Source of the DNA: Proteiniphilum saccharofermentans
GTDB taxonomy: Bacteria > Bacteroidota > Bacteroidia > Bacteroidales > Dysgonomonadaceae
DNA: 64,000 nt
Direction: 5' to 3'
Assembly: GCF_900095135.1 (NCBI RefSeq)
Contig: NZ_LT605205.1
Location: 4,092,001-4,156,000 of the forward strand
The position numbers and the translations under genes were made by a program. Position 1 is the first letter of the stretch, and each line of letters starts with the position of its first letter. Below are positions 17,594 to 28,176 of the stretch, one piece after another. The notes beneath the pieces are model-generated. The model did not search any database, had not been told where the DNA came from, and saw only the letters and a list, made by a program, of their open reading frames with translations.

Positions 17594-19189
17594 TTAAAAG
17601 AATAATCCGTTAGTGTATCCCAACCATCTGAATACCGTCTCTCCCCAGACAATAATCATCACCCAGGCAATGATCATCATCGTAAAGCCAAATTTAAATG
17701 TATCGCTCCAACTATACTGGTCAGTTGTATATAACAACGCAGCGGGTTTACTGTTGAACGGCAACACATATACGTGATTGTTCAGCAATGCCACCGGAAA
17801 GGCGAGGCTCAACGGATGGAAGCCAAACTGTTGTTCAATACCCAGTGCAATAGGGATGAATATCAGTGTACGCATCGTCTTGGACTGGAATATCAATGCG
17901 CTGAAAAGCATCAGGAATGTCAGCACCAGATAGATTACCCAGAAAGGGGTAGCCGCGGTGATTCCCAGCTTGGCAAAAGAAACATTGACGATTGTCCCGG
18001 GTAAGCCGGTGGCATCAAGACCTACGCCCAACGCATACGCGCCTGCGGAGAACAGCATCAGGTGCCAGGGAATATCCACTTCGTTCCAGTTCACAATCCC
18101 TATTTTGGGAAGTAATGCCACGATAGCACCCGCGAAGGCTACCGTTGTCTGACTGATACCGTGTTGCTTGTCTGTCGCCCACAGCACAAGTACCGCCACA
18201 AATATGGCAATAGCCTTATATTCCTGCACACCCATCTTCCCCATGTTGTGAAGTTCCTCTTTAAGGCGTTCCATTCCTCCTTCAATCTGGGGGACTTTTT
18301 CTTCTTCCTTTAGCGGGAAAATAATTTTGGATCCCACAAACCATGCAATAAGGATCAGGATAATAGCCAACGGGAACCCGGCGACAAACCAGTCCTGATA
18401 GCTGAATATCCTTCCGCCGATCGCTCCCGCCATCAATGCCGCGGCCAACAGGTTGGAACCGGCACCGGTGAGGAAACCTGAGGCCCCCACATTGATCTGG
18501 AACAGGTTTTGCAAGACCAGGTTCCTCCCGAAGTTATTTCGTTTGCTTCCTCCGGTAGCCCCATAGATGGCAGCAATGACCATAAAGATAGGCAATAAAA
18601 TGGCAGCTTTGGCTGTTGTGGCCGAAATAAAAGCAGAAAGGACAATATTGATAATGATAAAACTGAAAATTATCCACGACGCCGATTTCCCGAAGCGTAC
18701 CATAAACCACAATGCAAAACGCTTGGCCACCTGCGTCTTCACCAGCATACTGGCAAGCACAAAAGAGAGGATATTCAACCACATCACCGGATGTCCAAGT
18801 TGTGCAAAAGCGGTCTTCTCGGTGGTAACCCCAAAAACAACAATGCCGAAGATCACCAGTAACGATGTCAGGTAGTTGGGCAGGGCCTCGGTAATCCACA
18901 GCACGATAGCTGCAGCAAATATGGCAAGCATGGCGTAATTGATCCTGATAAACGCCTCATAACCCAGAATATCCAGGCGTGCTGTCGCTGTGGTATCCAG
19001 GCCATCCGCCGAGAGCGTATTCAGGAAAGGTATATCGATAACCCAGTAGATCAGTGCAAAAACGATGATAGCCAAAGGGGCTCCCACCATAGCCATCCAT
19101 TTTTCAACACCGGATTTTTGCATCTTAGGCAGTTTCTCTATCCGGTAATTATTCATGTCGATCGGATCGAACTTCGTCTCTTTTTCCAT
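17594..19189 (-). CDS. DASS/SLC13-family sodium-coupled anion carrier
   Basis: A polytopic membrane protein of about 531 residues with around 11-12 hydrophobic segments. The SLC13-type repeats each include an SNT-like loop: TTAKAAILLPI in the first half and FQSKTMRTLIFIPIALG in the second. Substrates in the family are dicarboxylates, citrate, sulfate or, in some members, phosphate; the sequence does not decide. The start at 19189 (MEKETKF) follows an AGAGAG-type purine run and is preferred to the longer frame from 19234. It is upstream of the unknown membrane protein and follows the CYTH operon terminator. Confidence 0.85.
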   Translation of the reverse strand: MEKETKFDPIDMNNYRIEKLPKMQKSGVEKWMAMVGAPLAIIVFALIYWVIDIPFLNTLSADGLDTTATARLDILGYEAFIRINYAMLAIFAAAIVLWITEALPNYLTSLLVIFGIVVFGVTTEKTAFAQLGHPVMWLNILSFVLASMLVKTQVAKRFALWFMVRFGKSASWIIFSFIIINIVLSAFISATTAKAAILLPIFMVIAAIYGATGGSKRNNFGRNLVLQNLFQINVGASGFLTGAGSNLLAAALMAGAIGGRIFSYQDWFVAGFPLAIILILIAWFVGSKIIFPLKEEEKVPQIEGGMERLKEELHNMGKMGVQEYKAIAIFVAVLVLWATDKQHGISQTTVAFAGAIVALLPKIGIVNWNEVDIPWHLMLFSAGAYALGVGLDATGLPGTIVNVSFAKLGITAATPFWVIYLVLTFLMLFSALIFQSKTMRTLIFIPIALGIEQQFGFHPLSLAFPVALLNNHVYVLPFNSKPAALLYTTDQYSWSDTFKFGFTMMIIAWVMIIVWGETVFRWLGYTNGLFF

Positions 19190-19298
19190 TCTCTCTTCTG
19201 TTTGGGAAATTTTCAGGTACGGGACACGTGTCATACAGACTACGTCTCCCGAAAAAGCTTGTAACTATGTCTCAGGTAGTATAAAAATAACGTTTATA

Positions 19299-19357: not shown

Positions 19358-19828
19358 CTACCACTTGGTATAAGGATTCTTCATCAACATCGAATTGTAA
19401 AAACGGGCATCGCCGGTCACTTCTTCACCCAGCCATTCCGGTTTTTCAAACTGGTCACCTTCGCTGGATAATTCTATCTCCGCTACAACCAGTCCCTGGT
19501 TTTCACCATAGAACTCATCCACTTCAAAAGTAAACTTGCCCGATTTTACTTCATAACGGGTTTTGTCGATCACGCCCGGTTCGCAGATCTTAAGCAGCTC
19601 CTCTACTTCCGTTACCGGGATCTCTTTTTCCCACTCATAGCGGGATGCTCCGCTTGCGCTGCCCATTCCCTTTATGGTGATATAACCCTTGTCGCCTTTG
19701 ATACGTACCCGAACGGTGCGTTCGGGAACCGACGAGAGGTATCCCTGGGTAATACGCATCTGCCTGGCCGCTTCATTCTTAAAAGCATCAGACGTCACCA
19801 AAAACTTTCTTTCTATTTCCTGTGCCAT
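19358..19828 (-). CDS. CYTH-domain protein, probable inorganic triphosphatase
   Basis: A 156-residue protein made of one CYTH domain. The N-terminal EIERK at residues 4-8 is the ExExK metal/phosphate motif. Further tunnel residues appear in RTVRVRIKGDKGYITIKG, EWEKEIP and TRYEV. The family hydrolyses tripolyphosphate or thiamine triphosphate, and related folds include class IV adenylate cyclases and the VTC polyphosphate polymerase. Length is that of short bacterial triphosphatases. It is the last gene of a cluster that starts with phosphate transport genes, which favours a role in polyphosphate metabolism. Confidence 0.85.
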   Translation of the reverse strand: MAQEIERKFLVTSDAFKNEAARQMRITQGYLSSVPERTVRVRIKGDKGYITIKGMGSASGASRYEWEKEIPVTEVEELLKICEPGVIDKTRYEVKSGKFTFEVDEFYGENQGLVVAEIELSSEGDQFEKPEWLGEEVTGDARFYNSMLMKNPYTKW

Positions 19829-19841
19829 GATTGTTATATAA

Positions 19842-20516
19842 TTAATTTGCCAATGGTTTGTTGATCATTCCGATCACACGTTTGATCGCCTGCAGGTAAT
19901 TGATATTTTCCACACCTCCCAGACCGACTTCCTGAATGGTTTTTTTAATATCTTCCACTTCGGTCGATTCGGAGTTGATGGTTTTCACCATCGCACCGTT
20001 GATATACACTTCTCCGGTTTCACAGATCGTGTCGTTCACCATATATCCATAGCGATGTTTCTCCACTGTCACAGCCTGCAGGTCGGGATGCGCATCGATC
20101 ATACCCAGGAACTCCTCCAGTGTATAGGTATCTTTGGTGAGTTGGGGCAGGTTATCTACTTTGAAAGCGGGAAATACCTCTTCGTTCAGCACGGTAGCGG
20201 AGATAGGGAATTCACCTTTCATCAGCGGATTCCATTGTTCCAATCCGTCAACAGTCTGTACGTAGGTCTTGATATCCATTTTTCCGTCGCGTATCTTTGT
20301 ATTATTTACATCGTTCGTACGACTCACGATGTAGGTTTCCGTGCTGCGACGCTCCCATACTTTCTCGGGTACGGGAATGGAAAGACGGGCCATCCGTTTT
20401 TCCGCCTCACAAAAACAACGTCCGAATGAACGGAACTCAAATCTCGGTTTCGAGATTGCACCAATCTCCATCTTTTCTTTGCTCATATTATTTTGATATT
20501 TATTATTACAACTCAT
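19842..20516 (-). CDS. uncharacterised protein, possibly CYTH-like
   Basis: A 224-residue soluble protein. It has no database-grade signature, but features recall a second, diverged CYTH tunnel: FEFRSFG near residue 26, RRSTETYIVSR near 57 and KIRDGKMDIK near 75. It lies 13 bp upstream of the clear CYTH gene, so the two are surely co-transcribed. The start could be 20516 (ATG) or the in-frame ATG ten codons later (MSKEKMEIG). It might form a pair with its neighbour. The function remains unknown. Confidence 0.55.
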   Translation of the reverse strand: MSCNNKYQNNMSKEKMEIGAISKPRFEFRSFGRCFCEAEKRMARLSIPVPEKVWERRSTETYIVSRTNDVNNTKIRDGKMDIKTYVQTVDGLEQWNPLMKGEFPISATVLNEEVFPAFKVDNLPQLTKDTYTLEEFLGMIDAHPDLQAVTVEKHRYGYMVNDTICETGEVYINGAMVKTINSESTEVEDIKKTIQEVGLGGVENINYLQAIKRVIGMINKPLAN

Positions 20517-20609: not shown

Positions 20610-21446
20610 TTAGCTTTGAGGAATATCGTTTCCTGTGGCTGGATTAGCAGCACCGTTTGTCGGCGTGGCCAACTTCCAGTCTCCGGTTCCATTGGGAATC
20701 CGTTGATAGGAATTGGGTGCGGTATCACTGATACCAACACCAAGATTCGATTCATCTCCACGCAGGAAGACGCCTAAACTCGCTCCATCAGGTCCGAACA
20801 ATTCAAATTTCAGGTTTTGCTTTGGTGAAATTCCGCTTCCTCCTGACAAATGCGGATTGTCAGGGTTACTCTGGATAATAAGCACATATCCTCCTGCGGG
20901 TATTTTACCGCTCTCCGCCGTTCCTGTCCACCAGGCACTTGAACCATTATTCTTCACAAGTGATACGCCGGTCAATGAAAGCTCCACCGATCCCTTGTTA
21001 AATAACTCAATAGCTTTGCTATTGCCATCAATTTCATTTAATACCAGATTGTTATAATCAATAGGAGGTGCTCCCACCGTATACGTCAGTTCATTTGAGA
21101 CGGCAGAGACCCCTGCTTTATTATCGGCTGACACAGTAAATGTAACAACTGCCTTATCGGCCTGTTTTGGAATTACCCCGGTATAGGTATCACCGTTTCC
21201 TTTTGTCATGGTTACCTCCGACTGGCTTCCGCCGTTTACCTTATATTGAATCTTGGCTCCGGTCACGCCTTGCAGGTCGGTAATGGTCGCCGTTATGGTC
21301 ACGTCATCAGCAGGAGTTACTTCCAGCGGGGCGAACTCTACTTTCTCTATGTTTGCCGGGCCTTTATACATCTCGTCTTCCACGCATGATACAGCCAGTA
21401 ATACCAGTACAATAAATATATTTGCTATTAAAAATTTAGTCTTCAT
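20610..21446 (-). CDS. lipoprotein with Ig-like and lamin-tail (LTD) domains
   Basis: A 278-residue lipoprotein: signal peptide ending in the lipobox LLAVSC, so Cys21 or thereabouts is lipidated. Residues about 35-125 look like a bacterial Ig-like sandwich (VTPADDVTITATITDLQGVTG). Residues about 130-240 resemble a lamin-tail domain (LVLNEIDGNSKAIELFNKG, then PAGGYVLIIQ). LTD domains in secreted bacterial proteins are often beside nucleases or phosphatases. Here it follows a phosphate-type porin by 24 bp, suggesting a cell-surface partner of that porin or a phosphate-source binding protein. This role is inferred from context. Confidence 0.75.
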   Translation of the reverse strand: MKTKFLIANIFIVLVLLAVSCVEDEMYKGPANIEKVEFAPLEVTPADDVTITATITDLQGVTGAKIQYKVNGGSQSEVTMTKGNGDTYTGVIPKQADKAVVTFTVSADNKAGVSAVSNELTYTVGAPPIDYNNLVLNEIDGNSKAIELFNKGSVELSLTGVSLVKNNGSSAWWTGTAESGKIPAGGYVLIIQSNPDNPHLSGGSGISPKQNLKFELFGPDGASLGVFLRGDESNLGVGISDTAPNSYQRIPNGTGDWKLATPTNGAANPATGNDIPQS

Positions 21447-21470: not shown

Positions 21471-22847
21471 TTAGAAAACAATTTCACAACGCAGTGATAC
21501 CATGCTGTAATCTATACCCGCTTTGCCTTTCGACTCGGTCACTTTTGTATAGTCTTTCGTAGGTTTACCGGCCGCATCATGGCCTACCAACAATTTACCT
21601 TTACCATTCGCATAACGGTCGTTGTTGTTATACTGGTAGTTGAGCATGAATTTCACATTATTATTCACCCAGAAGTTCATGCCCAGGGCATAAGCTTCGG
21701 ATGCCCCACCATAGACACCTCCATCGAAATCGTTCAGGTCGATACTCTCATAACGGGCAGTCAATTCCAAATCACCCCATTTTTGTCCGCGCTGTACACG
21801 ATTGTATTTTGCTCCTCCGTAATCGTAGCGTTGCTGACCGCCGAAAAGAAGATATCCGGCCTGTGCATACCATCCGCCGAAATTCTTGTTATCCTTGTTC
21901 ACCATGGGGGAATCGTCCTTAAGGGAAACGGTACTCCCAATATAGGCGGTTTCCACGCGAAGCCCTTTATAATGGCCTGCCAACTCTGCTGTATAGAGCA
22001 ATGAGTGATCTACCCCTTTAATCACATCGGTATCGACATACTTTTTCCGGTTGATAGAAGTAGAGTTCCTGGCACTGTAGCGTACACCGCCAAAATCGGA
22101 TGGCGCATCAGTAGATTTGGGAGTCCGGTATGATACCGCTCCTCCTATATGCAACCCCATGTCATTGTATTTGTGTAACGGGCGTAAAACCAGTTTTCCG
22201 GTGTACGACTCTCCGGTACCGCGACCATAATCCTTATTGTTATCCTGTACATTGGTCACTTCTTCCAATCCTGCAATCTCCTGAAAGAAAATACCGGCTG
22301 ACGCCCAGATCAATGGGATACTGTACTTGATATTGGCTCCCAGATGACGGGATGGCGCGAGATATGTCACCATAGGACGCTCCATAAACTGAAGGTAACG
22401 GGATGAGGTATTCCTTTGCATGGAAAAATTTTCTTTGAAGTTACCCACTTGTATTTCCACATTCTTGATCCCGTCGTAACGGAGAATGGCATCTTTCAAC
22501 TCCGCAGTCCCGTCAGCCATGTCGATATCAAATTCACCGTACCAGTTCCGCGTTACCTGGGCTTTTACCGCAAAACGGGCACGACGGATACTGGCTCCGT
22601 TTCCAATCTCGTCATAATCATCATCCACACCGAAAAAGCCTGCGTAGTCGGCCTGAACCCGTCCATCAAGCCATATCTTGTAATCAGAATCTTCCGATTC
22701 GAAAACAAGCCTTCCATCCTGCATTTCAGTCTTAATCTTCTTAGACTGTACTTCCATTCCATACTGGTCGTATTTTACCCCGTCCTGTGCGAAAGCGGAG
22801 CCTGTAACAAAAAGTACCAGCAATAAACAAATTGTTTTTCTTCTCAT
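21471..22847 (-). CDS. phosphate-selective porin, OprO/OprP type
   Basis: A 458-residue outer-membrane barrel with signal peptide MRRKTICLLLVLFVTGSAFA. The start at 22847 is preferred over the frame from 22874 because it gives a clean signal peptide. Family features: IRRARFAVKAQVTRNWYGEF, ADGTAELKDAILRYDG, SRYLQFMERP and a C-terminal strand ending CEIVF. The Pseudomonas relatives are channels for phosphate and polyphosphate. Many Bacteroidota homologues have no proven substrate, but here the gene lies directly behind a PiT permease and so probably serves phosphate. Confidence 0.88.
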   Translation of the reverse strand: MRRKTICLLLVLFVTGSAFAQDGVKYDQYGMEVQSKKIKTEMQDGRLVFESEDSDYKIWLDGRVQADYAGFFGVDDDYDEIGNGASIRRARFAVKAQVTRNWYGEFDIDMADGTAELKDAILRYDGIKNVEIQVGNFKENFSMQRNTSSRYLQFMERPMVTYLAPSRHLGANIKYSIPLIWASAGIFFQEIAGLEEVTNVQDNNKDYGRGTGESYTGKLVLRPLHKYNDMGLHIGGAVSYRTPKSTDAPSDFGGVRYSARNSTSINRKKYVDTDVIKGVDHSLLYTAELAGHYKGLRVETAYIGSTVSLKDDSPMVNKDNKNFGGWYAQAGYLLFGGQQRYDYGGAKYNRVQRGQKWGDLELTARYESIDLNDFDGGVYGGASEAYALGMNFWVNNNVKFMLNYQYNNNDRYANGKGKLLVGHDAAGKPTKDYTKVTESKGKAGIDYSMVSLRCEIVF

Positions 22848-22875
22848 TCGTAATATTATTTTTAAATTAAACATG

Positions 22876-24630
22876 TTATAGTGATTGAATAAACTGTGTC
22901 AGACTGTCGTTTCTATTCAGCCCCATTTTGGTTCTTAACCGGTAACGCGATATCTCTACGCTTTTGGTTGAAATATTAAGCAGTGGCGCCATTTCTTTTG
23001 ATGACAAACCGATTCGCAGCAGGACCAGAATTTTCTTTTCTTTATTTGTCAGGTTAGGATAGGATTCATTTAGTTTTTCGATGAATTCCATATGCACTTG
23101 TTCGGCCTGGCGATAGATCTCATCTACTTCACCCGAAAAACTCATACGCTGTTTTATCTCTATCAACTGGTTTCTCAGTAGTTTATTCTTTTCCTCGGCA
23201 GTACTAGCCCTGATAGCCTGCTCTATGGAGTCCGAAATAAGTTCCAGGTATCTGCGCTGTTCACCGATGTTTAACGAATAGGTTATCAGCTGATTTTTTT
23301 TCTCCTCCAAACGGGTGGCCAGACTCACATTTTCCAATTGAACGGTACTGACTTCTATTTCATTCAATGCTTTCTGGTAATCGCTAAACTGATTCTGTTC
23401 GGCTTGCCGATAACCCTCGGCACGCGCTTTCGCGTAATTACGCTTGTTCAGGACAACAGTATAAATAATAAAAGCTATTACCAGAAGGATCAGCGCCATA
23501 AGGAAAAATTTATTGGTTGCATTTACAGGTATGTAGTATGTCACAGCAGCAGCTTGCTCCGCATGAACTACCGGATCGGGGATGATCTCATTATCCGACA
23601 CCGGGATTCCGAAAACCCTGTCCACAAAGAATAAACTGACAAACGTGAAAGCAGCCGACAGGATGGGAGTAGTAATCCAACTCAGCATAATATTCCCAAG
23701 CATCTTCATCTTCAGTTCCTGTACTCCCTTCACAAGTCCTACGCCGATCAAGGCACCGACCAACACTTGGGTGCTGGAAACCGGCACCAAAGGTATCGGC
23801 GGCAAACCGGTACTTATTAACGCGTTGGACAGGGATGTAGAAGAAAAGATAAATAAAACCAAAGCTTGCGCCAGTACTGCCACGATCGCCATTTCCGGAG
23901 TCATTGACAGAACACCGTTGCCTATTGTGTACATTACTTTCTTGCTATAGGTAAAAATACCTAAGGCGATCGCGAGGGAGCCGATGAAAAACAGCAATTG
24001 TGTTGAAGAAATATACAACGAGCCGATACTGAGTGAAACAGAAAACGAATTCACGAATACCCCCATCACATTGGCGATATTATTTGCACCCAGACTGTAG
24101 GCGGCAAACGCGCCGACAATTATTAATGAAGTCCTGATGATTGACTCCATCTTCAGCATGTGCATACGCGATGAATGGATAAATTTGCGAACCAGCAAAT
24201 ACAAGACAAAAGAGAATACGGCGCCCAGGATCGGGCCAAAAACCCACGAGCCCACTATTTTTACCAAAATGCCGTATTCAACAGGATTTGAAGTGTAATA
24301 GCACCAGCCGATAATAGCCCCGACAATGGCTTGGCCTGTTGAAATAGGCAAGCGATACTTTGTCATTATCGTCACGATAATAGCGGCGCACAGTGCGACC
24401 GTAAAAGCGCCCCCAATCATATTTACGGAACCCAGTTCAGATAAGGTCTTCGTGGTACCGGCCCCCTGTATTACCGCCCCCAGTATAACGAATATGCTTC
24501 CGATGATAGCGGCTGTCCTGAATTTGACCATCCGGGTTCCGACTGCCGTACCAAAGATATTGGATGCGTCATTGGCGCCTAATGACCAGCCTAGAAACAG
24601 CCCACTTACAAGGAAAAGGTATATAAACAT
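22876..24630 (-). CDS. PiT-family phosphate permease fused to a LuxR-type HTH domain
   Basis: A single uninterrupted 584-residue frame. Residues 1 to about 393 are a PiT permease: the two inverted-repeat signatures LGANDASNIFGTAVG (N-terminal) and SLGANNIANVMG (middle), with PISTGQAIVGA and VPVSSTQVLVGA. After a final membrane span (about 375-394), residues 395-520 form a charged, helical coiled-coil-like linker. Residues 526-584 are a LuxR/GerE helix-turn-helix: LTNKEKKILVLLRIGLSSKEMAPLL then STKSVEISRYRLRTKMGL. The tail resembles that of Bacteroidota Y_Y_Y regulators. It is therefore a membrane-tethered regulator whose sensor may be the transporter itself. It lies 12 bp after the DUF47 gene and before the porin. 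Direct DNA binding is inferred. Confidence 0.9.
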   Translation of the reverse strand: MFIYLFLVSGLFLGWSLGANDASNIFGTAVGTRMVKFRTAAIIGSIFVILGAVIQGAGTTKTLSELGSVNMIGGAFTVALCAAIIVTIMTKYRLPISTGQAIVGAIIGWCYYTSNPVEYGILVKIVGSWVFGPILGAVFSFVLYLLVRKFIHSSRMHMLKMESIIRTSLIIVGAFAAYSLGANNIANVMGVFVNSFSVSLSIGSLYISSTQLLFFIGSLAIALGIFTYSKKVMYTIGNGVLSMTPEMAIVAVLAQALVLFIFSSTSLSNALISTGLPPIPLVPVSSTQVLVGALIGVGLVKGVQELKMKMLGNIMLSWITTPILSAAFTFVSLFFVDRVFGIPVSDNEIIPDPVVHAEQAAAVTYYIPVNATNKFFLMALILLVIAFIIYTVVLNKRNYAKARAEGYRQAEQNQFSDYQKALNEIEVSTVQLENVSLATRLEEKKNQLITYSLNIGEQRRYLELISDSIEQAIRASTAEEKNKLLRNQLIEIKQRMSFSGEVDEIYRQAEQVHMEFIEKLNESYPNLTNKEKKILVLLRIGLSSKEMAPLLNISTKSVEISRYRLRTKMGLNRNDSLTQFIQSL

Positions 24631-24642
24631 ATCTCCTAAATA

Positions 24643-25287
24643 TTATACCATTCGTTTAATTGCCATAATAGAGAGCAGATCCGCTACTTTTTCGGCCGTG
24701 TCCGAGATATTTTCTATATGCAATGTGAAATACCGCAAATGGAACTTTTCACTCAACTTTAGATCCGGCATTTCTTTAAATATCTTTCGCCGGATGATAT
24801 CTGCCATCAGGTCAGTTTCCTTTTCATAAAAATAAACCCTGTGTATCTTTTCATTTACATTTACAGGCTCATTAAAGTATGACTTCGCGGCAGGTATCGT
24901 GGATTCGGCAGCAGAGACCGATGTTTGGGTAAGGCGGATAAAGTCGGATATCAACTCTGCAGGAATATTGGGTGTCTCCACCTCAAATTGGAATAAATTC
25001 TTTTTTGCCTGATCAATCAGATTGTCCATCTCTTCAAGCAGGCGCATGATATCTCCCCGTACCTGTGGCATCAACGATTGGACATACAAGGTCGTTTCAA
25101 TCTCTCGACGCAACTTATCAGAATCTCTCTCTGAGTTAGCGAGTTCCAATATATCGTTATTGAATTTCTCTGTATTATTATACAGGTAATTTTTCACTCC
25201 TTCTTTAAAAAGCAACAAACTCTGGTCAACACAATTCAAGAATTTATCAATGAGTTCTATGGATTGATTGGTTCGGGAAAATAACAT
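24643..25287 (-). CDS. DUF47 / PhoU-like regulator of the phosphate permease
   Basis: A 214-residue, mostly helical protein of the DUF47 (TIGR00153, PhoU-related) family, which in many bacteria sits next to PiT permeases and modulates them. The ATG at 25287 (MLFSRTNQSIELIDKF) is preferred: the frame extends 43 codons further, but that part has no family character. It is the first gene of the leftward cluster. The promoter should lie within 25288-25500, but no clear consensus match was found there. Confidence 0.85.
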   Translation of the reverse strand: MLFSRTNQSIELIDKFLNCVDQSLLLFKEGVKNYLYNNTEKFNNDILELANSERDSDKLRREIETTLYVQSLMPQVRGDIMRLLEEMDNLIDQAKKNLFQFEVETPNIPAELISDFIRLTQTSVSAAESTIPAAKSYFNEPVNVNEKIHRVYFYEKETDLMADIIRRKIFKEMPDLKLSEKFHLRYFTLHIENISDTAEKVADLLSIMAIKRMV

Positions 25288-25510: not shown

Positions 25511-25550
25511 TTAAAAAAATCAACTCTACATTCAAAAATGTAGAGTTGAT
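25511..25550 (-). terminator. strong intrinsic terminator of creD
   Basis: ATCAACTCTACATT (25519-25532) and its complement (25537-25550) form a perfect 14-bp stem around a CAAA loop. On the minus strand a T run follows (25511-25518). It lies 34 bp after the creD stop. Confidence 0.88.
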
Positions 25551-25583: not shown

Positions 25584-27032
25584 TCATATCCTTATCTTCC
25601 TCGCATAATACATGATCACTGCCAGAATAGCAAACAACCCCAAACTACCGACTAACAGGGAGTAGCTTTCCATCCGGATCAACAGGAAGACAAAGACATA
25701 CAGAAAAGCCAACAGTGATCCCACCAATACCCCCTGTTTCCGATTTCCAAGGATAGCCGCCATATGGAGCGTGATCATCACAATGGTCATGAGTGCTGCC
25801 ACAGCGTACGCAAGATTAAATCCCCATATTTCGGACATGGAGAGGAGCAGAGCGTAAAAGAGCACCAATGCCAATCCGACAAGTAAATAGTGGAACGGAT
25901 TGACCGGATTTTTCTTAATCAATTCAATAAAAAGCACTACCACAAACGTAAGCAAAATAATCAGTACACCATATTTCACACTTCGTAAATTCTGATGGTA
26001 CTGATCGACCGATTGAATGAATTTCACCCCAAAGAGCGACGAAGCCATCAGATTGATCGCTGCACTGTCATCGCCCCCTACTGCCTGTCCGTAACTGCGA
26101 TTAAGATCCAACACTTTCCAGGCGGCCGAAAAACCTTCATCCGTGATATCGTGGTTCACGGGCAGGAAATCGCCGCCGAAACTCGGTGTTGCCCAATCCG
26201 ATTGAAAAGTTGCCGTCGTCACTTTTCCCACCGGCACAACGTACAACCCCATCGATCCGTTCAGATACAACGTTACGGAAAAGGATGTATTTCCATCCCT
26301 CATTGCAGTTATGACCGACGAATCGGTACGGGCATTCAGCCCCGCTGCAAAGATCCCGGAAAAAACATTCGGTGCTGCCACCGATTTTTCTGTGTCGGGA
26401 ATATATATATTCATGTCCGGATTCGGGCCGGTAAATAAATTTTCCACCGGAATTCCGGGTTCCATAAGGAAGGTCTCCCCGTTAAGTTGTAATGAGACTA
26501 CCTCACGAATGCCTCTCAGATCGGTTATTCCCATGATAACACGGGCTTTATCAAACTTTATATCTTCTTCTTTAATACCGGCCTTCTCAATCTCACTCAT
26601 ATCAAAAGTACCCTCCAAAGTGATCTCGGATTTATAGACCGACGCATCATAAATGCCGCGCTTGCGTTTTTCCACTGCCGCATTAGCTTGTATATCCAGC
26701 GTTTCAGGAAACAAAAGGATATCCCTGTTAACTATTTCACGCTTATCGTTCACAATCCGCTCCTGAGTATACGGAATAGCGATACACGGTCCGGCCACGA
26801 TCTGCTCACCACTCCATTTTGAAGTAATATCCTGAACTGCACTGGATTTCGTTAATTTTCGCTCATTGATAAGCCCGCGGATCATTCCTAACGGAATCAA
26901 CAACAGAAGAGTTAAGAATCCAATTATCACCAGCTTAATACTTGCAGAGTAGCGTTCAATAAAACTCCTTTTATTTCCGTTCCCTTCCGACGGTAACGGT
27001 GTCATTGGATTTGAAGAATCCATTGTTTCCAT
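25584..27032 (-). CDS. creD: inner-membrane protein CreD
   Basis: A protein of about 482 residues with an N-terminal membrane span (residues about 30-52), a large periplasmic domain, and four or five spans in the last third. This is the CreD layout. Family sequence includes GPCIAIPY and the internal FSVTLYLNGS. In Gammaproteobacteria CreD belongs to the CreBC regulon and affects envelope integrity; here the regulator is instead the small winged-helix gene just upstream. The ATG at 27032 is preferred to a TTG five codons earlier. Confidence 0.92.
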   Translation of the reverse strand: METMDSSNPMTPLPSEGNGNKRSFIERYSASIKLVIIGFLTLLLLIPLGMIRGLINERKLTKSSAVQDITSKWSGEQIVAGPCIAIPYTQERIVNDKREIVNRDILLFPETLDIQANAAVEKRKRGIYDASVYKSEITLEGTFDMSEIEKAGIKEEDIKFDKARVIMGITDLRGIREVVSLQLNGETFLMEPGIPVENLFTGPNPDMNIYIPDTEKSVAAPNVFSGIFAAGLNARTDSSVITAMRDGNTSFSVTLYLNGSMGLYVVPVGKVTTATFQSDWATPSFGGDFLPVNHDITDEGFSAAWKVLDLNRSYGQAVGGDDSAAINLMASSLFGVKFIQSVDQYHQNLRSVKYGVLIILLTFVVVLFIELIKKNPVNPFHYLLVGLALVLFYALLLSMSEIWGFNLAYAVAALMTIVMITLHMAAILGNRKQGVLVGSLLAFLYVFVFLLIRMESYSLLVGSLGLFAILAVIMYYARKIRI

Positions 27033-27155
27033 ATTGTCAATTATCAATTACAAATTATCAATTACGAATTACCAAATCGGTAGATAATTATCCTGTTTGT
27101 CTTCCATTTCACAGTTCCACTGTCCCACACCTTTTCACCATCTTTTTCCACCTCT

Positions 27156-27458
27156 TCACCGTTCCACCTTATTCAAAAAAGACTCCAATGCCTGAAGATG
27201 TTCCCGAAACGCCTTCTCTCCTTTTCCGGTTCGAGCGAATGTGGTCCTCGGTTTTCTGCCGACAAATTGTTTCTTCACAACGATGTATTCCAGGCTTTCC
27301 AGTGCCCGGGTATGGCTCGCCAGATTACCGTCGGTCACTCCCAGCAATTCCTTCAGTGAATTAAAATCGATCTCATCATTCACCATGAGAACCGACATAA
27401 TCCCAAGCCGGACTTTGCTCTCGAATGCTTTATTGATATCTTCCAGATGTTCAATCAT
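27156..27458 (-). CDS. winged-helix transcriptional regulator
   Basis: A 100-residue protein formed almost wholly by a winged helix: SKVRLGIMSVLM, then DFNSLKELLGVTDGNLASHTRALE (helix-turn-helix) and GRKPRTTFARTGKGEKAF (wing). The family (MarR/ArsR-like, PF13601 type) commonly pairs with small membrane proteins and creD in Bacteroidota. It overlaps the upstream membrane-protein gene by 4 bp (ATGA), so both are made together. It probably regulates its own operon. Confidence 0.88.
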   Translation of the reverse strand: MIEHLEDINKAFESKVRLGIMSVLMVNDEIDFNSLKELLGVTDGNLASHTRALESLEYIVVKKQFVGRKPRTTFARTGKGEKAFREHLQALESFLNKVER

Positions 27459-28084
27459 GCTGCAGAATATCTTTCAACGCGAAAATAGAAGTAAATACCA
27501 TACACAATATGCAGGACACCAAATCCGATCGCCCATAACAACAGTCCCTTTCCGGGAAAGAATGCGCATATCAGTCCGAGAAGCAATTCACTACATCCCA
27601 ACCAGAAAATATTTCCGTACGTGTACTTTGATGCATTAATGAGCGATAGTCCGTAAAACAGCAACATGACCGGAGCAATAATTCCTACATCTCCTCCGAC
27701 AAGAAGTGCAACACAGAAAATTCCACCTACGGTAAGGGGCAGGAAAAAGTTCAGAAATGTGCGGTAAGCCGGACCATTGATGAAAGAATGATTCATTTTT
27801 TTCGCTTTCCGGGCTGAGAAGAACAGAATTGTAGACAATGATAATACGAATACAATAAGAGCCACAAGAATAATATGAGGGGCAATGGTAATCCAGCCGG
27901 GGGTAGAATACTCACCAGGAATCTCTTTAACCGGTGATATAATGCCACGGGCTACAAATGCTCCCGCCAACGCATATAAACCGATAAGAATGGCAGATGT
28001 GCCACTGAACGATAAGAAACGAGATGATTTCTCCATCATTACCCGTATCTCTTTTACTGCTTCGACCGCTTCGTTATTCTTCAT
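27455..28084 (-). CDS. small polytopic membrane protein of the creD operon
   Basis: A 209-residue protein starting MKNNEAVEAVKEIRVMMEKSS, followed by about six hydrophobic segments (GTSAILIGLYALAGAFVA, IILVALIVFVLSLSTILFF and others). The ATG at 28084 is preferred to a start eight codons upstream. There is no recognisable catalytic motif. It is the first gene of a three-gene unit with the winged-helix regulator (4-bp overlap) and creD, so it may be the membrane partner or signal input of that system. Confidence 0.75.
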   Translation of the reverse strand: MKNNEAVEAVKEIRVMMEKSSRFLSFSGTSAILIGLYALAGAFVARGIISPVKEIPGEYSTPGWITIAPHIILVALIVFVLSLSTILFFSARKAKKMNHSFINGPAYRTFLNFFLPLTVGGIFCVALLVGGDVGIIAPVMLLFYGLSLINASKYTYGNIFWLGCSELLLGLICAFFPGKGLLLWAIGFGVLHIVYGIYFYFRVERYSAA

Positions 28085-28176
28085 AATTAAAAGTACTTTG
28101 AAATACAAAGTAAATATATAAAAATAAACTCTCCAATATACGGAGAGCCCATTTAAGAATATTTAATATATATTTT

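Follow-up and report, generated by a model that had tools for sequence, protein, structure and literature searches.

A PiT-family permease joined to a LuxR-type DNA-binding domain: a candidate transceptor of the Bacteroidales

Fusions of a carrier with a sensor have been described in CbrA of Pseudomonas, an SLC5 transporter joined to a histidine kinase, and in Ks-Amt5 of Kuenenia, an ammonium transporter domain joined to a histidine kinase (excerpts of PMC13022988 and PMC5764959). The transporter domain of CbrA is not required for signalling, according to an excerpt of PMC7096432, and hence a fused carrier need not be a sensor. In Ks-Amt5 the carrier fold serves as the sensor and transport has been lost. 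The carrier-signalling fusions that we found in the literature end in kinases. In the PstSCAB-PhoU-PhoR-PhoB system a carrier and a PhoU-like protein likewise inform transcription, with the carrier, the kinase and the DNA-binding protein as separate chains. Two further groups are related to the protein described here by one half each. PiT/SLC20 carriers, such as TmPiT (6l85), share its fold and first GAND signature, and the Bacteroidota membrane LuxR regulators share a transmembrane helix, a long helix and a LuxR-type domain over residues ~376-584.

We analysed a window of 64,000 nucleotides from the genome of Proteiniphilum saccharofermentans, in which a PiT permease and a conserved LuxR-type DNA-binding domain are joined in one chain. 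Like CbrA, the protein combines a nutrient carrier and a signalling output; it differs in that the carrier is PiT rather than SLC5, and in that it has a DNA-binding domain where the kinase of CbrA needs a response regulator. Ks-Amt5 differs in its Amt fold and its kinase output. The Bacteroidota membrane LuxR regulators take their input from propeller/Y_Y_Y (Reg_prop/Y_Y_Y) domains or TPRs, not from a transporter, and the protein departs from PiT/SLC20 carriers such as TmPiT in its second signature, GANN, its added transmembrane helix and its helix-turn-helix (HTH). We know of no earlier description of a PiT carrier with a LuxR domain, and the open-access literature searched for this architecture yielded none.

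We favour, with moderate confidence, the reading that the protein is a membrane-tethered one-component regulator in which a PiT-family anion permease acts as the sensor, that is, a transceptor with its own DNA-binding domain that regulates its own operon. The carrier, probably with a DUF47 protein bound, would change shape on anion occupancy or transport; helix 13 and the helix that continues it in the cytoplasm would pass this change on to a pair of HTH domains. The pair would then bind DNA and adjust the transcription of its own operon to the supply. LuxR-type domains in general form dimers, and a dimer is assumed here. More tentatively, and with some doubt prevailing, we extend this reading to the order as a whole: Bacteroidota transporters that are at the same time transcription factors, each a PiT carrier with a PhoU-like partner that would act through helix 13 on the DNA of its own uptake operon, with L177 as a sensing-only and L179 as a transport-only member. 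If true, hardly any path from nutrient handling to transcription could be shorter than a carrier with a DNA-binding domain at its end, and a standing question, whether a transceptor reports substrate binding or transport, would become directly testable. Members that seemingly lack one half or the other are ready-made natural controls, and P. saccharofermentans, a bacterium from biogas production, is in culture, which makes tests feasible.

Domains, topology and models of the fusion protein

Table 1 Features of the locus (positions in the window)
Feature	Position	Strand	Basis and remarks
PiT-LuxR fusion gene	22876..24630	-	584 aa; PHO4 and GerE by Pfam; 30-member family
PiT/PHO4 permease module, residues 1-345	23596..24630	-	Pfam PHO4; top fold match TmPiT 6l85
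Additional (13th) transmembrane helix, residues 376-394	23449..23505	-	Hydropathy; peak in 30/30 members
Signalling-helix linker, residues 396-515	23086..23445	-	Predicted helix; aligns with linker of other membrane LuxR regulators
LuxR-type (GerE) HTH, about residues 526-584	22879..23055	-	Pfam and Foldseek
DUF47/PhoU_div gene	24643..25287	-	214 aa from ATG at 25287; Pfam PhoU_div 2.9e-23; start from homologues
Porin_O_P outer-membrane porin	21471..22874	-	Pfam 3.3e-41; conserved neighbour
Lipoprotein-like protein with lamin-tail domain	20610..21446	-	Pfam LTD 8.2e-10; conserved neighbour
c3, orphan conserved protein	19842..20486	-	Start inferred from homologues; conserved neighbour
CYTH-domain protein	19358..19828	-	Pfam CYTH 1.8e-19
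DASS/SLC13-type sodium:anion symporter	17594..19234	-	Na_sulph_symp 5.5e-54; TIGR00785 over cut-off
c7, orphan protein, 487 aa	16107..17570	-	No family match; probable last operon gene
Hairpin with T tract	25519..25550	-	14-pair stem, then T run; read as intrinsic terminator

The initial annotation, which named no strand, had proposed a continuous frame from permease to HTH, and the uninterrupted minus-strand frame agrees with this (Table 1). The PHO4 profile of Pfam matches best over residues 18-328 (E 1.6e-64, 218.6 bits against a cut-off of 33.7) and GerE over residues 526-574 (E 1.5e-9, 37.8 bits against 23.5). A complete PiT permease with both GAND/GANN signatures had also been claimed. 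The PHO4 profile and the canonical first signature, GANDASN, uphold this claim, but the second signature, GANNIAN, departs from the canonical GAND. The critical Asp of the GAND type is found in the first signature only, one of the two asked for in the PiT family. Profile and fold still place the protein in the PHO4/PiT superfamily, as a divergent branch. In an alignment of 30 fused PiT-LuxR proteins, the window protein included (A1; L numbers denote loci and G numbers genomes), PHO4 is matched in 30/30 (at E 0.01) and GerE in 29/30, the exception presumably being L179.

What had been called a coiled-coil-like linker of 130 residues is indeed a long predicted helix, but it starts with a transmembrane helix, and its heptad periodicity is not significant (93 of 500 shuffles of residues 396-475 are equally strong in the heptad test). 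Residues 396-475 are modelled as part of one long helix. The transmembrane helix is the strongest hydropathy peak of the window protein (Kyte-Doolittle 3.09), and a peak of at least 2.3 is found at this position in 30/30 members of A1. It forms the end of a variable region that follows the PiT core, residues 346-395 having a mean pairwise identity of 0.17 in A1. Lys and Arg are commoner after than before the helix in 29/30 members, which favours a cytoplasmic C-terminus. In an older topology model of PiT both carrier ends are inside, and some authors have concluded from C-terminal tags that human PiT1 and PiT2 have external ends (both from an excerpt of PMC3126765). With both ends inside, one extra helix would put the HTH outside, which weighs against a transceptor; with external ends, one extra helix would bring the tail inside, in agreement with the charge pattern. 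The charge pattern and the external-ends model thus favour a cytoplasmic HTH.

The full-length model (mean pLDDT 80.7, pTM 0.56; pLDDT below 50 at residues 350-371) has one helix spanning residues 369-473, followed by a helical C-terminal domain. Its top fold match is the one given in Table 1 (Foldseek E 2.4e-12, TM by target 0.64, rmsd 9.0). An isolated output module was modelled from alignment A2, which holds all fused proteins but L098 and L179 (28 of 30) and four regulators. This model (mean pLDDT 88.7, pTM 0.49) matches LuxR-type domains including LiaR-DNA, NarL-DNA, VraR and DosR with a Foldseek probability of 1.00, all at E >0.01, and superimposes on LiaR bound to DNA with an rmsd of 1.2 over 58 columns. 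In addition, the sequence profile of the output module finds StyR, EsrB and the Bacteroides regulator 3clo, and in PHROGs the HTH part matches a transcription-regulator and a sigma-factor family.

Conservation, distribution and origin

The HTH is under purifying selection. In the two pairs for which dS could be estimated with our own counting script, dN and dS of the HTH are 0.046 and 1.017 (window against L095) and 0.019 and 0.147 (L097 against L098). The recognition-helix residues K556, S557, R562, Y563 and R564 are each kept in 29/30 fused members, L179 being the exception. An intact LuxR-type HTH, as initially annotated, is therefore well founded on the GerE match over its cut-off, the modelled LuxR fold and purifying selection, and the DNA-contact residues are not missing from a modelled fold with a conserved recognition helix. 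Within the protein, conservation is highest in the PiT module, with a mean pairwise identity of 0.61; that of the HTH is 0.55.

Four further genomes from the genus (G019, G1095, G1096, G1099) have the fused architecture at 75-84% identity, and more distant members of A1 are 40-64% identical to the window protein. The initial annotation had suggested looking for such fusions across Bacteroidota; within the order they belong to 18 families. The order survey (E 1e-60 or better) gave 41 close PiT matches in 40/393 genomes. By hand count 25 of these are fused, among them G613, whose HTH has decayed, and G692, truncated where its contig starts. Another 13 are unfused; for three of these (G400, G688 and the second G434 copy) the call uses only the length of the frame. 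One is interrupted by a stop (G393), one runs off its contig before the HTH (G577) and one is a contig-edge fragment (G508). Within the family, close matches occur in 5/101 genomes, each of them a fused protein from the genus of the window, a patchiness that tells against a transceptor. The class survey matched 3/395 genomes, the window's own among them, with a fused protein in G856, of another order, and an unfused one in G830. In the phylum survey, window aside, close PiT proteins occur in 10/296 genomes and are unfused in 10/10, which again speaks against the transceptor reading. Among 84,980 named species, a pattern scan with the window protein found 121 relatives; of the best 80 of these, 5 are fused (L095-L099) and 75 unfused. 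The L099 sequence is that of L179, and the L095 sequence that of G1095. A plasmid search with the window protein matched 34 records, none over >80% of the query.

It had been considered that the fusion might be an assembly join absent from close relatives; instead it is widespread across the order. The unfamiliar architecture is the sole argument for an assembly artefact or a non-functional read-through, explanations ruled out by the 30 aligned members, by selection on the HTH and by the same architecture in a complete genome (the source genome is one contig of 4,414,963 bp) and in draft genomes; we give them next to no probability.

Residues ~376-584 align with the output half of Bacteroidota membrane LuxR regulators at roughly 30% identity, anchor included, so that a ready-made cassette seems to have been joined to PiT. 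Of the three such proteins scanned for domains, L007 has Y_Y_Y, Reg_prop and GerE matches, all under their cut-offs, and L045 has strong TPRs and no GerE call. The third (L008:1462-2079) is a stand-alone protein of 206 aa in which the output cassette, with its membrane anchor, helix and GerE domain, has no sensor attached. A plasmid relative is annotated 'triple tyrosine motif-containing protein'. The PiT tree held the 30 fused proteins together with unfused ones: 11 of the order, 10 of the phylum, and 21 that were selected by hand, for breadth, among the 75 unfused named loci. In it 25 fused proteins form a clade (SH-aLRT 98), the other five stand among unfused members of the order, and the fusion label needs four changes. 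The same 25 group together at SH-aLRT 98 in the output-module tree (30 fused proteins and 40 membrane LuxR regulators), in which a single clade for all 30 output modules is not rejected (p-AU 0.558). One old fusion followed by several losses would fit these trees. Two unfused proteins of the order (L203, L204) keep the extra helix and have no HTH, as expected of losses.

The operon and natural variants

From DUF47 to c7 the genes lie on a single strand with gaps of 1-123 bases, in the order DUF47, PiT-LuxR, porin, lipoprotein, c3, CYTH and SLC13-type symporter; gene calls around the compared loci come from a simple longest-ORF script. DUF47 lies directly upstream of PiT in 79/80 named loci (the best 80 of the 121 relatives); the remaining locus sits at a contig edge. 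Porin, lipoprotein, c3 and DASS accompany the fusion in 25 of the 26 fused loci with >2 kb downstream, the exception being L179 with its decayed HTH. In the order 8 of 11 unfused loci have >2 kb downstream; the porin is found in one of these 8 (L208, where the contig ends after c3) and DASS in none. When phylogeny is taken into account (34 rows), the association of HTH and operon comes down to only 3 independent pairs, all in the same direction, with a median p of 0.25. Since similar gene clusters of other phyla lack an HTH (L107, L115), the operon can do without it. Both points weigh against the transceptor reading.

An operator was searched for in 29 fused loci (L201, whose HTH is off the contig, was included; L098, a near-copy, and L179, with its decayed HTH, were left out) and 20 unfused loci. 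The best inverted repeats within at most 300 bases upstream of DUF47 (96 bases only at L185), compared by eye, reveal no shared operator-like dyad, and this counts against a transceptor. The hairpin with T tract is matched only in the near relative L095 and reads as the terminator of the upstream gene and the 5' border of the operon.

In some natural variants one half of the protein is altered. In L177 the first signature GAND is changed to GAQG, the PiT branch is 0.86 long against 0.29 for the output module, and the HTH remains 85.5% identical to that of the window; a second PHO4 gene was not found in its genome (99% complete). L177 may thus have lost transport, as Ks-Amt5 has. L196 has GSKD as its first signature and keeps the HTH, and L197 retains N and D within altered surroundings. 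L179 is the reverse of L177, with carrier signatures intact and the recognition helix decayed; porin, lipoprotein, c3 and DASS were not found beside its PiT gene. These few cases would fit sensing and transport as separable functions.

Two genes of the operon are orphans. c3 matches no family in Pfam, none over cut-off in NCBIfam and no PDB profile; in PHROGs it has a weak match to a family of unknown function. It is 44-88% identical to the window sequence across 22 other aligned sequences (33 in the set; the window row starts from ORF residue 30), and some of its motifs recall, by eye, CYTH/triphosphate tunnel enzymes. c7, without a family match in Pfam and NCBIfam, lies downstream in 13/30 fused loci, several of these loci ending before its place, and recurs near PiT in a Chlorobiota locus and a Shewanella locus. 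A CYTH gene is found downstream of PiT in 5/11 unfused loci of the order and upstream in one more (L205-L212), besides its place in the fused operon, which may point to a tie between this PiT branch and polyphosphate or triphosphate metabolism. Between an aspartokinase-like gene and the operon, positions 25584-28108 of the minus strand hold CreD, an HTH_34 protein and a membrane-like protein. DUF47 of G019 (L175) has the homologue of the aspartokinase-like gene as its direct neighbour, so the CreD/HTH_34 block looks inserted or lost.

Ligand and alternative explanations

D506 and H502 of human PiT2 are both reported as critical for Pi transport (excerpt of PMC3126765). At the equivalent of D506, 30/30 fused proteins and 42/42 unfused relatives have Asn, the second signature being GANN in 72/72, and at the equivalent of H502 Leu is found in 30/30 fused proteins and 40/42 unfused relatives; these equivalences are our own reading of the alignment and of that excerpt. 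TmPiT has His and Asp at the H502- and D506-equivalent positions. The Asp of the first signature is kept in 29/30 fused members. With the GANN signature, phosphate transport may be altered or absent, which weighs against the transceptor reading. Phosphate is the likeliest ligand, given the porin and DUF47 as partner; sulfate or a different oxyanion may take its place. That the ligand is sulfate or another anion, with the protein nearer to CysP-type permeases, appears rather unlikely to us, and it would be compatible with a transceptor as well as with the other alternatives. It draws on CysP (NF053884) being the only permease model matched in NCBIfam, far under its cut-off (76.9 bits, E 1.3e-21, cut-off 400), on the DASS-family symporter within the operon and on a Bacillus carrier encoded between phosphoadenylyl-sulfate reductase and sat-cysC, which also has an Asn-Asn second signature. 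Against it, TmPiT, which carries phosphate, gives the best structural match, the PhoU-like DUF47 is the constant partner, and the N-terminal GAND is canonical in the window protein, unlike in the Bacillus carrier, whose first signature is not GAND. This carrier, from the sulfate-assimilation cluster of Bacillus velezensis (L219:3974-5038), is annotated 'inorganic phosphate transporter' and is probably CysP.

Two alternatives give the carrier a lesser part than in a transceptor. PiT might be a receptor only, binding the anion without transport and sensing for the tethered LuxR domain, in the way that Ks-Amt5 senses ammonium, with uptake left to the SLC13-type symporter. The replaced D506 and H502 equivalents throughout the fused proteins would agree with this, as would L177 and L196, which lost residues of the first signature and kept the HTH, and L197, altered around them. 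Yet the same GANN occurs in all 42 unfused relatives compared, which have no sensor domain and are presumably carriers, and both the nearly constant Asp of the first signature and the high conservation of the PiT module count against this alternative; we regard a pure receptor as unlikely. Alternatively, PiT might be a co-expressed membrane anchor, with the HTH regulating in response to DUF47, proteolysis or the state of the membrane. The independence of CbrA signalling from its transporter domain is a precedent, and similar cassettes stand behind unrelated inputs (propeller/Y_Y_Y, TPR) or, in L008, alone. The joining of PiT and HTH in 18 families and the near-constant place of DUF47 beside PiT suggest functional coupling instead, and a mere tether seems distinctly unlikely.

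The genome of the window holds a second PHO4 gene (G000:C1:4409360-4410727; L002, L214) in a 780-aa frame. It also has a separate PhoU gene (259-aa frame), so the fusion would not be the only phosphate-related control in this genome.
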